Shown here: piece by piece, positions 54,515 through 60,106 of the stretch | Numbering within the stretch: the first letter of the stretch is position 1 | How the letters are laid out: each line of letters opens with the position of its first letter | The notes under the pieces: generated by a model | What the model saw: the letters and a program-made list of their open reading frames with translations, nothing else | Told to the model about the DNA's origin: nothing | The model's database searches: none | From: Trichocoleus desertorum NBK24 | Lineage (GTDB): Bacteria > Cyanobacteriota > Cyanobacteriia > FACHB-46 | Assembly (NCBI RefSeq): GCF_030409055.1 | Contig: NZ_CP116619.1 | Location: 3,573,628-3,637,627, forward strand | Length of the DNA: 64,000 nucleotides | Direction of reading: 5' to 3' | Made by a program: the position numbers and the translations under genes

Positions 54515-57500
54515 ATGGATGGGGCTGAGCGGATTCAATGGTTAAAAGAGCATACTCAGTTGGCATCGCTCTCTGATGAAGCTCTAGAGGCGATCGCCGT
54601 TGCTATTGTCGAGGAGCCGTTCCCAGAAAATCGCCATCTGGTTGTAGAAGACACCCATCCAGATGTACTTTACATCTTGAAAACAGGACATTTAGAGAGC
54701 TACCACACCAGCCCAAATGGCCCTGTCAAAGCAGTGAGCTTGCTGCCTGGAAGCATCATTCATCTCAAGGAACTGTTGCTAGAGCAACCCACTGAGCGAA
54801 CCGTCATTACTCTTGACGATGGTTTGTTGTGGCGGATCACCAAAGAGCAGTTTCTTGCTTTAGCGCAGCAGTACCCAGAAGTTAGCCGTACCTTCTCGCG
54901 CCAACTCGCAGCGGAGCTAAACCAACTAACTTCTCAACTCGCCTATGAACAAGAGCGGCAGGCAGCATTACGACCTTACGCGATTCCCAGAGTCAGGCGA
55001 GGCGTGATTGGCAGTAGTGAGGTTGCTGTTGGACTCCGTAAACAAGTTCGAGATGCTGCCCGCGATCGCACTCCCGTTTTACTGACGGGTGAGGCAGGAG
55101 TTGGCAAAGTTAACTTAGCGGCCTTAATTCACTTCAACTCAGCGGCGCGACGGGAACCCCTAATTCGTTTCAACTGTGGCACTCTCTCTAGTAGTGGTGC
55201 AGAACTGTTTGGGCGGGCGGCTCAAAGCGCGAGTGGTAAACAGGGTTTGCTGGCCTACCTAGGCAGCGGAACTTTAGTGCTAGATCACCTGCAAGATCTG
55301 CTTCCAGAACTACAAGTTAAAGTAATTCAGCTCCTTCAAACCGGAGAGTATCGCTCCATCAGTCGAGAGGGCGAACCGATCGCTGAACTACAGCAGTGTC
55401 AAGCGCGCATTATCATCACCGCAGAGCGATCGCTCGATCAAGTCACTGAACAACTAAGCCTTGAACTTGGACAAGTTTTGTGGGGACATGCGATTGAAGT
55501 GCCACCCCTGCGCGAGCGTAAAGCCGATATTAAAGCCAAAGCCGAATATCACATTAGTTGCTTTGCCCGGGGAGAAGGAATTTCTCGGCCCAAACTCACC
55601 TCGGAAGCGGCGGAAGTTTTAGCCAGTTACGACTTCCCTGGCAATTTACCAGAGCTAGAGAGCCTGCTGGAGCAAGCGATCAGCCAATCGAATGGCGCGG
55701 CTGAACTGACGGCTGATCTGTTCCGCTCGGCCCAACAACTCGCCGTTGAACTGGATCAAGTTACCTCTCAACTGGCCTTTGAGCAAGAACGCCAGACTGC
55801 ATTGCGTCCCTACCTCGTGCCAAAAGTACGCCGGGGGATTGTCGGCTCTAGTCGCTATGCGGTGCGGTTGCGTCAGGAAATTAAAAAAGCGGCGGGCGAT
55901 CGCAAATCTGTCTTGGTGTTTGGTGAACCAGGGTTGGGCAAAGACAATACCGCAGCACTGATTCACTTCGGCTCTCGCGATCGCCACCAACCGATGATCA
56001 AAATCAACTGCAACACGCTGCAAGCCAGTGGCGCAGAATTGTTTGGTCGAGCGGGAGGTAAGCCAGGGCTACTAGAGTGGATTGGTCAGGGCACGCTCCT
56101 GCTCAACAACATTCAAGAGTTACCCCCCGCGCTGCTAGAAAAAATTCTGCTCTTACTCGAAACCGGAACCTACACTCCAATTAGCCGTGAAGGAGAACCC
56201 GCACCAGAACCTAAGCAAAGCCAAGCTCGGATCATGATGGTGTCAGAAAAAACGCTGCCCCAGTTGGAGCGAAAGCACTGCGTCCCCCATGTGATCAAAG
56301 TGCCACCGTTGCGGGTGCGGAAAGCTGACATTGCGGCTCAGGCTGAGTACTATATCAGCTTGACCTGTCGAGCTAAAAACCTCACTCGTCCCCACGTCAC
56401 CCCAGAAGCCTTACGCCGTCTCCAAGGCTATGACTTTCCGGGCAACTTCACAGAACTAGAAGGACTGATTGAACGGGCGATCGCGCAATCGAATGGCGCA
56501 CCAGAACTCACGGAAGAAGTCTTTTGGGCCGTGAGCAACAAAACCCGACGCTTCCGAGTGAACCTGCTCAACGCCTATCCCAAGCTACGGCAGTTTTTAC
56601 GGAGTGATTGGTGGCCCGATCGCATCAACTTTGGCTTTACTTTGGGTATGTTTGCCGTCATCGTCGCCATCTTGATGTTCGGCCCCCAAACGCGCGACAG
56701 CAACATTGGCCTCAATTTATTTTGGGCTTGGTGGTGGCCGTTGATGCTCTTTGCCTTTCCCTTTGTCGGGCGCTTGTGGTGCTCGGTTTGCCCATTCATG
56801 ATCTACGGTGAGTTAGCTCAGAAGCTTTCCTTACAAGTCTTTCCCCGTGAATTACTGCCTTGGCCCCGCCAGCAAGCGGAGAAGTGGGGCGGCTGGTTTC
56901 TGTTCGGCTTATTCACGCTGATTTTGCTTTGGGAAGAACTTTGGAATTTAGAAGACACAGCTTATCTGGCGGGTTGTCTCTTACTGCTGATTACGGCTGG
57001 GGCGGTAATCTTTTCGCTGTTGTTTGAGCGCCGCTTTTGGTGCCGCTATCTCTGCCCAATTGGGGGGATGAACGGCTTGTTCGCCAAGCTCTCCATGACT
57101 GAGTTGCGGGCACAACAAGGCATTTGTTCTGCCACTTGCACGACCTACCAATGCTACAAAGGCGGCCCTGAAAAAGGCGAAGGACAAGAAAGTCTGGGTT
57201 GCCCACTCTACTCTCACCCAGCGCAATTGGAAGACAACCGTGACTGCGTGCTGTGTATGACCTGCCTCAAAGCTTGCCCACACCGCTCAGTGGAAGTGAA
57301 TCTACGGCCTCCTGGCATTGAACTTTGGACGACTCATCAGCCGACTTATGCAGAAGTAGCGCTGCTATTTTTATTATTCGGAGCGGTTTTCCTCCATCGC
57401 CTACCTGAGATCGAAAACCAGTTGGGCTGGAATCTGCATTTAGAGAATTTTGGCTGGCATGCTGGGGTTTCTGTAGCAGCATTATTGCTCCCTGTGGCGA

Positions 57501-57880
57501 TCGCGCTCTTGGCCCAATTCTTGATTCGAGTAGTCAACCGCACCCTCAAACCTCGTCCCTTTCTGGAGCTAGCTTACGGCTATTTGCCTTTAGTTCTGGG
57601 CGGCAGCTTAGCTCACTATCTGCGTTTGGGTTTAACCGAAGCGGGCCGAGTTCTGCCAATCACCCTCGCTACCTTTGGCTACAGCAGCGTTAACGTGCCG
57701 ATCGCCGTGGCTGAACCCGCAGTAATCGCATTTCTGCAAGCGGTGACGCTCATTGCTTCAGTCTGGTTGAGTGTGATGTTGACTCAGAAAATTGCGCGTC
57801 AGCCTTTACTCAGTCTGTTACCCCAACACCTAGCCACGATCGCCATCGGCTCGCTGTTGTGGAAGTTAATTGTCAGTTGA
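54515..57880 (+). CDS. Fusion protein: cNMP-binding-like domain, two degenerate NtrC-type AAA+ modules, membrane 4Fe-4S ferredoxin
   Basis: 1121 residues. A cyclic-nucleotide-binding-like domain (about 10-135) is followed by two homologous AAA+ modules (about 160-400 and 435-670), each preceded by a copy of LTSQLAYEQERQ-ALRPY, so the unit was duplicated internally. Walker A loops (GEAGVGKVN, GEPGLGKDN) and the arginine-finger region PPLRxRKADI are kept, but the GAFTGA sigma-54 loop is absent and Walker B is LVLDH or LLLNN instead of LDE. Residues 700-1121 are several membrane helices with CSVCP (756-760), CRYLCP (843-848) and two ferredoxin sets (Cys871/875/880/896; Cys911/914/917/921), like NapH/CcoG. 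It is probably a redox- and nucleotide-sensing membrane protein. Confidence 0.85.
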   Translation: MDGAERIQWLKEHTQLASLSDEALEAIAVAIVEEPFPENRHLVVEDTHPDVLYILKTGHLESYHTSPNGPVKAVSLLPGSIIHLKELLLEQPTERTVITLDDGLLWRITKEQFLALAQQYPEVSRTFSRQLAAELNQLTSQLAYEQERQAALRPYAIPRVRRGVIGSSEVAVGLRKQVRDAARDRTPVLLTGEAGVGKVNLAALIHFNSAARREPLIRFNCGTLSSSGAELFGRAAQSASGKQGLLAYLGSGTLVLDHLQDLLPELQVKVIQLLQTGEYRSISREGEPIAELQQCQARIIITAERSLDQVTEQLSLELGQVLWGHAIEVPPLRERKADIKAKAEYHISCFARGEGISRPKLTSEAAEVLASYDFPGNLPELESLLEQAISQSNGAAELTADLFRSAQQLAVELDQVTSQLAFEQERQTALRPYLVPKVRRGIVGSSRYAVRLRQEIKKAAGDRKSVLVFGEPGLGKDNTAALIHFGSRDRHQPMIKINCNTLQASGAELFGRAGGKPGLLEWIGQGTLLLNNIQELPPALLEKILLLLETGTYTPISREGEPAPEPKQSQARIMMVSEKTLPQLERKHCVPHVIKVPPLRVRKADIAAQAEYYISLTCRAKNLTRPHVTPEALRRLQGYDFPGNFTELEGLIERAIAQSNGAPELTEEVFWAVSNKTRRFRVNLLNAYPKLRQFLRSDWWPDRINFGFTLGMFAVIVAILMFGPQTRDSNIGLNLFWAWWWPLMLFAFPFVGRLWCSVCPFMIYGELAQKLSLQVFPRELLPWPRQQAEKWGGWFLFGLFTLILLWEELWNLEDTAYLAGCLLLLITAGAVIFSLLFERRFWCRYLCPIGGMNGLFAKLSMTELRAQQGICSATCTTYQCYKGGPEKGEGQESLGCPLYSHPAQLEDNRDCVLCMTCLKACPHRSVEVNLRPPGIELWTTHQPTYAEVALLFLLFGAVFLHRLPEIENQLGWNLHLENFGWHAGVSVAALLLPVAIALLAQFLIRVVNRTLKPRPFLELAYGYLPLVLGGSLAHYLRLGLTEAGRVLPITLATFGYSSVNVPIAVAEPAVIAFLQAVTLIASVWLSVMLTQKIARQPLLSLLPQHLATIAIGSLLWKLIVS

Positions 57881-58927: not shown

Positions 58928-60106
58928 CTAAGCTGGGCTAGAAACGGTCGTACCTCGCAAAGACTGGATGGTTGCGATCGCCTGTTGTGCGGCTCGATCA
59001 ATCTCCACTTCTGTATTGAACCGCCCAATACCAAACCGCAGCGAAGCATAAGCCAATTCTGGCGATCGCCCTAAAGCAGTCAGCACATGGGAAGGTTTGA
59101 TTTCAGCCGATGTGCAAGCAGAACCAGAAGAAACCGCTACCATAGGTTGCAACCCCAACAACAACGCTTGCCCATCTACCCCTGCCACACTGACATTGAG
59201 ATTGCCAGCAAGCCGTTGCGTAGGATGACCGTTCAGGTAGATATTGCCGACCGTGTTGAGCTGCTGCCACAGGCGATCGCGCAGTTGCGTCAGCCGTTGA
59301 GCTTCTGTTACTTGTTCTGCCAGTCCCAACTCTACTGCTCTGGCGAAACCGACGATCTGTGGGGTGTAAAGCGTCCCCGATCGCATGCCTCGCTCATGCC
59401 CACCTCCATGTAGTTGAGGTGCCACCTGGACTCTAGGATTACACCGCCGCACATACAACGCCCCAATCCCCTTCGGCCCATACACCTTATGAGCTGTGAG
59501 CGACATCAGATCAATCTGCATCGCTGCCACATCTAAAGGGATTTTAGCGATCGCTTGAGCCGCATCGGTGTGAAAGAGAACTTGATGCTGGTGACAAAGC
59601 GCCCCAACCTCAGCCAGTGGCTGCAACACCCCAATCTCATTATTTGCCGCCATCACCGAAACCAAAATCGTATCAGGCCGCAATGCTTGCTCCAGTTCTG
59701 CCAGATTGATCAAGCCATCAGATTGCACAGGTAAATAAGTAACCTCAAATCCCAAAGACTCTAAATAGCGGCACGGGTCAAGCACGGCATTGTGCTCAGT
59801 AATGACAGTGATGATGTGCCGTCCCTTGCTGATGTAAGCTTCTGCCACCCCTTTGATCGCCAAATTATTTGCTTCTGTAGCGCCACTGGTGAAAACGATT
59901 TCCTCTGGGCCACAGTTGATCGCAGTTGCTAAAATTTCTCGCGCTTTTTTGACTGCCGCTTCCGCCTCCCAACCATAGGCATGAGTCACACTCGCCGGAT
60001 TCCCAAAATGCTCGGTAAAGTACGGCAGCATTGCCTCTAGTACCCTTGGGTCTACCGGAGTTGTAGCGTGGCAATCCAGATAAATCGGACGATAAACGTT
60101 GGGCAT
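58928..60106 (-). CDS. Cysteine desulfurase (IscS/NifS type)
   Basis: 392 residues. Class V PLP aminotransferase. The N terminus IYLDCHATTPVDPRVLEAML, the PLP-lysine region SLTAHKVYGPKGIGALYV and the catalytic-Cys loop SSGSACTSAEIKPSHVLTAL are all present. It releases sulfur from cysteine for iron-sulfur cluster and tRNA thiolation pathways. The scaffold genes of an isc operon are not next to it, so I give no gene name. Type I by the Cys-loop. The 16-base gap to rnc is convergent. Confidence 0.93.
   Translation of the reverse strand: MPNVYRPIYLDCHATTPVDPRVLEAMLPYFTEHFGNPASVTHAYGWEAEAAVKKAREILATAINCGPEEIVFTSGATEANNLAIKGVAEAYISKGRHIITVITEHNAVLDPCRYLESLGFEVTYLPVQSDGLINLAELEQALRPDTILVSVMAANNEIGVLQPLAEVGALCHQHQVLFHTDAAQAIAKIPLDVAAMQIDLMSLTAHKVYGPKGIGALYVRRCNPRVQVAPQLHGGGHERGMRSGTLYTPQIVGFARAVELGLAEQVTEAQRLTQLRDRLWQQLNTVGNIYLNGHPTQRLAGNLNVSVAGVDGQALLLGLQPMVAVSSGSACTSAEIKPSHVLTALGRSPELAYASLRFGIGRFNTEVEIDRAAQQAIATIQSLRGTTVSSPA

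Follow-up and report, generated by a model that had tools for sequence, protein, structure and literature searches.

A 1121-residue protein of Trichocoleus desertorum NBK24 joins a cNMP-binding-type fold, two NtrC-type AAA+ modules and a membrane polyferredoxin in one chain. The core of this combination is widespread in cyanobacteria, and the doubling of the AAA module is a local elaboration of the window genus. Because twelve cysteines of the membrane part are invariant in every subfamily, this redox part appears to be the core on which the function of the protein rests, and the N-terminal head looks like a non-catalytic regulatory scaffold.

Gene, domain layout and family

The gene occupies positions 54515–57880 (+) of the window, the whole 64,000-nucleotide stretch of DNA that was analysed, in a genome assembled as one contig of 5.46 Mb. 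As the earlier note had read it, this is a single intact frame of 1121 aa with zero internal stops, the coordinates including the stop codon. Two other sampled genomes of the genus carry the full-length gene (loci L002 and L003; 1121 aa, 93–94% identity). An erroneous assembly of two genes, which the note had itself considered, is ruled out, because each of the three genomes sampled from the genus has the gene at equal length.

Pfam assigns residues 35–120 to cNMP_binding (PF00027, E 9.4e-13), two stretches to Sigma54_activat (PF00158, E 3e-41), with AAA lids, and part of the C-terminal region to Fer4_5 (39.7 bits against a cut-off of 22, thus above the gathering score). The N-terminal domain (residues 1–127; 54515–54895 (+)) matches the cNMP-binding fold that had been proposed, yet the usual cyclic-nucleotide contacts are missing: the positions aligned with the Glu and Arg of the phosphate-binding cassette are Leu and Thr/Ala in the window protein, and both residues are replaced family-wide. 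Two repeat units follow, each made of a helical linker and an AAA module (AAA1, residues 128–403, 54896–55723 (+); AAA2, residues 404–675, 55724–56539 (+)), and the chain ends in the membrane polyferredoxin domain (residues 680–1121; 56552–57877 (+)) with about nine predicted transmembrane helices.

A search with the AAA1 segment found relatives in 247 of the 388 cyanobacterial genomes of the class sample, and a GTDB peptide scan returned 394 candidate relatives, the best 80 of which were examined. Outside the genus, relatives are about 700–930 aa long and have a single AAA module; among the relatives examined, the 1121-aa tandem form was seen in the window genus only. What the earlier note implied to be a one-off double-AAA fusion is thus a member of a family. 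Its architectures are of three types: type A (~850 aa) consists of cNMP, AAA and membrane ferredoxin domains; type B (~900 aa, 42–46% identical) has the same domain order; and type C (~700 aa), from picocyanobacteria, keeps the AAA and membrane ferredoxin parts and lacks the cNMP domain. Three genomes (G149, G183 and G281) gave two AAA matches each, but at separate places and not in tandem; G149 and G183 each carry two type A-like copies (L131, L132, L145 and L146), ~60–68% identical to the window protein. In two genomes, the type B gene is interrupted by an in-frame stop or a frame change (L116, 3621–6450; L117, 4256–6968).

The description of the tandem as two duplicated units holds in that Pfam finds two modules, but the pair is just 56% identical and is specific to the genus. 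AAA2 retains every near-invariant family position within its slice, whereas AAA1 has 15 of them changed, in all three genomes of the genus (R447-Y448, P472, D477 and N531-N532 among others). Pairwise NG86 estimates of dN/dS are 0.05–0.13 for AAA1, 0.02–0.045 for AAA2 and 0.03–0.05 for the membrane domain; all domains fall within 0.02–0.13, with the lowest values in the membrane and AAA2 parts. From the retained and changed positions together with these values, AAA2 represents the family's standard module and AAA1 a diverged extra module maintained by purifying selection. A pseudogene was rejected on the same dN/dS range and the intact gene in three genomes. In trees, AAA1 groups with the single-AAA gene of another genome (G022-like), which suggests a hybrid origin of the tandem in which AAA1 derives from such a gene; an AU test does not reject the alternative that the two modules share one origin (p-AU 0.125).

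The NtrC-type AAA+ head

We aligned 100 type A, 41 type B and 10 type C modules (151 in total) with NtrC1 and NifA. The window head has the NtrC-type AAA+ fold with the P-loop Lys. The earlier note had reported the GAFTGA loop missing, and it is indeed absent from both window modules and from all 151 aligned relatives. Walker B reads as noted, LVLDH in AAA1 (GTLVLDH, 55268–55288 (+), Glu lost) and LLLNN in AAA2 (GTLLLNN, 56090–56110 (+), Asp and Glu lost); its Glu is replaced in every subfamily, being Asn in 98% of type A and 87% of type B. The sensor-I Asn is Glu in types A and C and mostly Pro in type B. Walker A was said to survive and does so (GEAGVGKV, 55088–55111 (+), in AAA1; GEPGLGKD, 55922–55945 (+), in AAA2), the P-loop Lys being kept in both modules and in all aligned ones; the loop is a full GxGKT in type B and GLEKD in most of type A. 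The arginine-finger region, by contrast with its claimed survival, is gone: where NtrC1 and NifA read FREDLYYRL, both window modules have a deletion or other residues, the segment is gapped out family-wide, and the PPLRxRKADI block, next after it, alone remains.

As no subfamily retains the Walker B Glu, the sensor-I Asn or the trans Arg fingers, cycling ATP hydrolysis by the head in a ring is unlikely; nucleotide binding is possible. Neither Pfam nor NCBIfam finds a helix-turn-helix (HTH) in the 1121-aa protein, whose AAA lid runs into the membrane domain, and Pfam finds no output domain of any other kind in it. The rpoN domains PF04552 and PF00309 were not found in the complete window genome, whereas positive control genomes gave matches, and none scored above cut-off in the genomes of 58 relatives. 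The suspected lack of sigma-54 agrees with a survey in which sigma-54 and its activators were absent from all 29 cyanobacteria that it covered (PMC3162934). Judged from the alignments, the loss of sigma-54 function is ancestral to the family. The proposal that the AAA+ pair was repurposed therefore stands in so far as the modules no longer serve sigma-54 activation and are joined to a membrane redox domain in a genome without rpoN; its "nucleotide-dependent" part is weaker than had been put, and a sensor role of the fusion is possible.

The membrane polyferredoxin and its genomic context

The twelve cysteines form a CX2CP motif (C756 and C759, residues 756–760; 56780–56794 (+)), a CX3CP motif (C843 and C847, residues 843–848; 57041–57058 (+)) and two ferredoxin-type sets (C871/875/880/896 and C911/914/917/921; 57125–57277 (+)), and show 100% conservation across 99 type A, 39 type B and 10 type C proteins. 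All twelve also occur in a homologue from Deinococcus ficus, the stand-alone 4Fe-4S protein WP_027463891.1, which matches 84% of the membrane domain at 33% identity and has no head and unrelated neighbour genes. The loop charges obey the positive-inside rule, by which the ferredoxin part and both CP motifs are predicted to be cytoplasmic. The NapH/CcoG-like character given to this region by the earlier note is borne out by the Fer4_5 membrane region with its CX2-3CP motifs and by the two 4Fe-4S Cys sets, placed on the cytoplasmic side by sequence and positive-inside topology; the NCBIfam NapH model scores 51.7 bits versus a curated cut-off of 213.05, and the protein is not a NapH member by that model. 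In the C-terminal helices, the family columns H1034 and H961 hold a His conserved in types A and B, the former being lost in type C; they may form a heme, metal or quinone site.

A search of solved structures with the membrane part gave weak ferredoxin matches only, and a fold search with its predicted model (pLDDT 63, below 50 in the ferredoxin part) gave no match at E 0.001, with the middling Z scores typical of helical bundles. Since model confidence is low to middling (full protein pLDDT 64.8, pTM 0.34) and the models do not resolve the ferredoxin part, the NtrC-type AAA fold is the one structural claim that we draw from them.

The first lead to the function of the family comes from the surroundings of type B genes. 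At 29 of 43 type B loci, cysK lies downstream within two genes on the same strand, at a median gap of 19 bp; this cysteine synthase was identified by TIGR01139, over cut-off. A CysK homologue lies within 6 kb at 2 of 80 type A (window-type) loci. The effect is large, but its Fisher p of 2e-15 overstates the certainty, because loci sharing genera are not fully independent. Rhodanese, CydAB, HemN, heme oxygenase, AcsF, NrdG, FeoB, PetC and PsbA each adjoin type B genes in fewer loci than cysK does, as do metallo-beta-lactamase-fold and TauE/SafE-like proteins, named by a look at their sequences only. HemN and heme oxygenase 2 belong to the cyanobacterial low-oxygen response, according to PMC4500134.

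Type B and cysK (L112–L117, L190–L226) form an apparent operon in low-oxygen/sulfide islands, some of them plasmid-borne with extra psbA and petC. The plasmid copy of Pseudanabaena galeata lies near cysK, rhodanese, DsrE, PetC and a photosystem Q(B) protein, and that of Aulosira laxa near cysteine synthase, PetC and a photosystem Q(B) protein. The A. laxa type B protein (L231, 6645–9359) is annotated as a nitrogen assimilation regulatory protein, a misleading name for a protein with neither HTH nor GAFTGA.

No neighbour of type A genes is conserved beyond 17 of 80 loci, and synteny across ten picocyanobacterial genomes revealed nothing conserved. The window genome has its own cysK elsewhere, not beside the 1121-aa gene. 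Near the gene lie a class-V aminotransferase gene, cysteine desulfurase-like, on the opposite strand (58928–60106), which is not a conserved neighbour, and, ~4 kb downstream, a DDE transposase gene (PF01609; 61716–62876). The sulfur and low-oxygen context thus reaches the window protein by homology only, and we infer that the window-type protein itself may be linked to reductant, sulfide or low-oxygen homeostasis.

Proposed mechanism, alternatives and known systems

The mechanism that we prefer, while holding it tentatively, is that of a membrane electron-transfer protein gated by a pseudo-AAA head. The C-terminal polyferredoxin would be the working part, with two [4Fe-4S] clusters predicted to face the cytoplasm, the CX2CP and CX3CP motifs at the membrane interface and five more helices thereafter; electrons would probably pass between soluble ferredoxin and either a quinone or an acceptor on the far side. 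The cNMP-fold domain and the NtrC-type pseudo-AAA+ part would form a cytoplasmic head with no sigma-54 action and probably no ATP cycling, whose most likely role is to oligomerise or gate the redox part when it binds a small molecule or a partner. The window genus has this head lengthened by the second, diverged AAA module that selection keeps. Cluster binding, electron transfer and gating are all predicted from sequence. The invariant cysteines, the universally lost catalytic AAA residues and the head-less homologues together argue for a redox protein with a regulatory head, not a regulator with a redox sensor.

The main rival, a possible but less probable reading, is a redox, O2 or sulfide sensor: an Fe-S membrane receptor whose pseudo-AAA head signals to a soluble partner or regulator, with no net electron transport. 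The head is composed of signalling domains, the sister subfamily, type B, adjoins redox-responsive genes, and the best solved relative of AAA2 by phmmer is VpsR, a non-sigma-54 NtrC-like protein; such proteins are signal-binding regulators. However, an HTH or other output domain is absent, the four membrane-motif cysteines and both ferredoxin sets are retained, which goes beyond the needs of a sensor, and homologues without a head exist. We consider it rather improbable that the protein is a maturation or assembly factor, in which the AAA-like head would dock a client and the ferredoxin part would give the electrons with which a metal centre is inserted or reduced. MoxR-type AAA proteins dock clients, CcoG and FtrD are thought to supply electrons for copper or iron handling, NapH/Fer4_5 relatives act in metal handling, and a distant stand-alone homologue in Azospirillum adjoins an FTR1-family iron permease; neither type A nor type B, though, has a metal-enzyme or transporter gene as a conserved neighbour, and the AAA catalytic residues are lost.

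Two further readings carry very little weight. A decaying or mis-assembled fusion without function would account for the 15 positions lost from AAA1, but is very unlikely given the intact gene at 93–94% identity in three genomes and the dN/dS values across its domains. Least probable is a genuine sigma-54 activator, that is, an enhancer-binding protein: Pfam and NCBI models do name a sigma-54 interaction domain, and one plasmid copy is annotated as a nitrogen assimilation regulatory protein, but this reading is refuted on sequence, with GAFTGA, Arg fingers, Walker B Glu and HTH all missing, no rpoN domains in the genome or above cut-off in the 58 relatives, and the 29-species survey in agreement.

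Taken further, and more speculatively than the gated electron-transfer mechanism itself, the family may be an undescribed, cyanobacteria-wide class of signal-gated membrane electron conduits, in which a head-controlled polyferredoxin connects the membrane with the pool of cytoplasmic ferredoxin. Type B would then be the form for low oxygen and sulfide, sharing a transcript with cysteine synthase, and the window genus would have a form with a double head. All parts come from known superfamilies, and in databases the proteins carry names that are generic or that mislead (sigma-54 interaction, nitrogen assimilation regulator). Our search of the open literature turned up no paper on the family, a 2026 review on redox signalling in cyanobacteria included, and it is unmentioned in the available parts of PMC5295598, PMC13421787, PMC5061849, PMC8002359 and PMC12466478. 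The combination, its spread, the three architectures and the cysK link are thus not described in the literature found, a search that left most subscription journals outside. About two-thirds of the sampled cyanobacteria encode this large membrane Fe-S protein. If its role is to move or sense electrons passing between ferredoxin and the membrane, it would fill the place of a missing control point in the redox balance of cyanobacteria; type B, with its cysK link, points to a concrete condition, low oxygen and sulfide. The family also shows clearly that an enhancer-binding AAA+ module can outlive sigma-54.

Among known systems, NapH/MauN, CcoG, NosR and FtrD resemble the membrane part in their helix bundle, CX2-3CP motifs and two 4Fe-4S Cys sets predicted to be cytoplasmic. 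The window protein differs from them in about five additional C-terminal helices, in the fused AAA/cNMP head and in its first motif, which is CX2CP and not CX3CP. With the NtrC-type enhancer-binding proteins (NifA, NtrC1 and PspF) and with VpsR and TyrR, the head shares the AAA+ fold, the lid, the P-loop Lys and the PPLRxRKADI block, but it has no GAFTGA, Arg fingers, Walker B Glu, sensor-I Asn or HTH; it is membrane-anchored, unlike VpsR and TyrR, which are soluble DNA-binding proteins, and in its genus has two AAA modules. The likeness to the cNMP-binding domains of CRP/FNR and PKA type is a fold-level profile match: those domains hold the cyclic nucleotide by a Glu and an Arg, and both are replaced across the window family.
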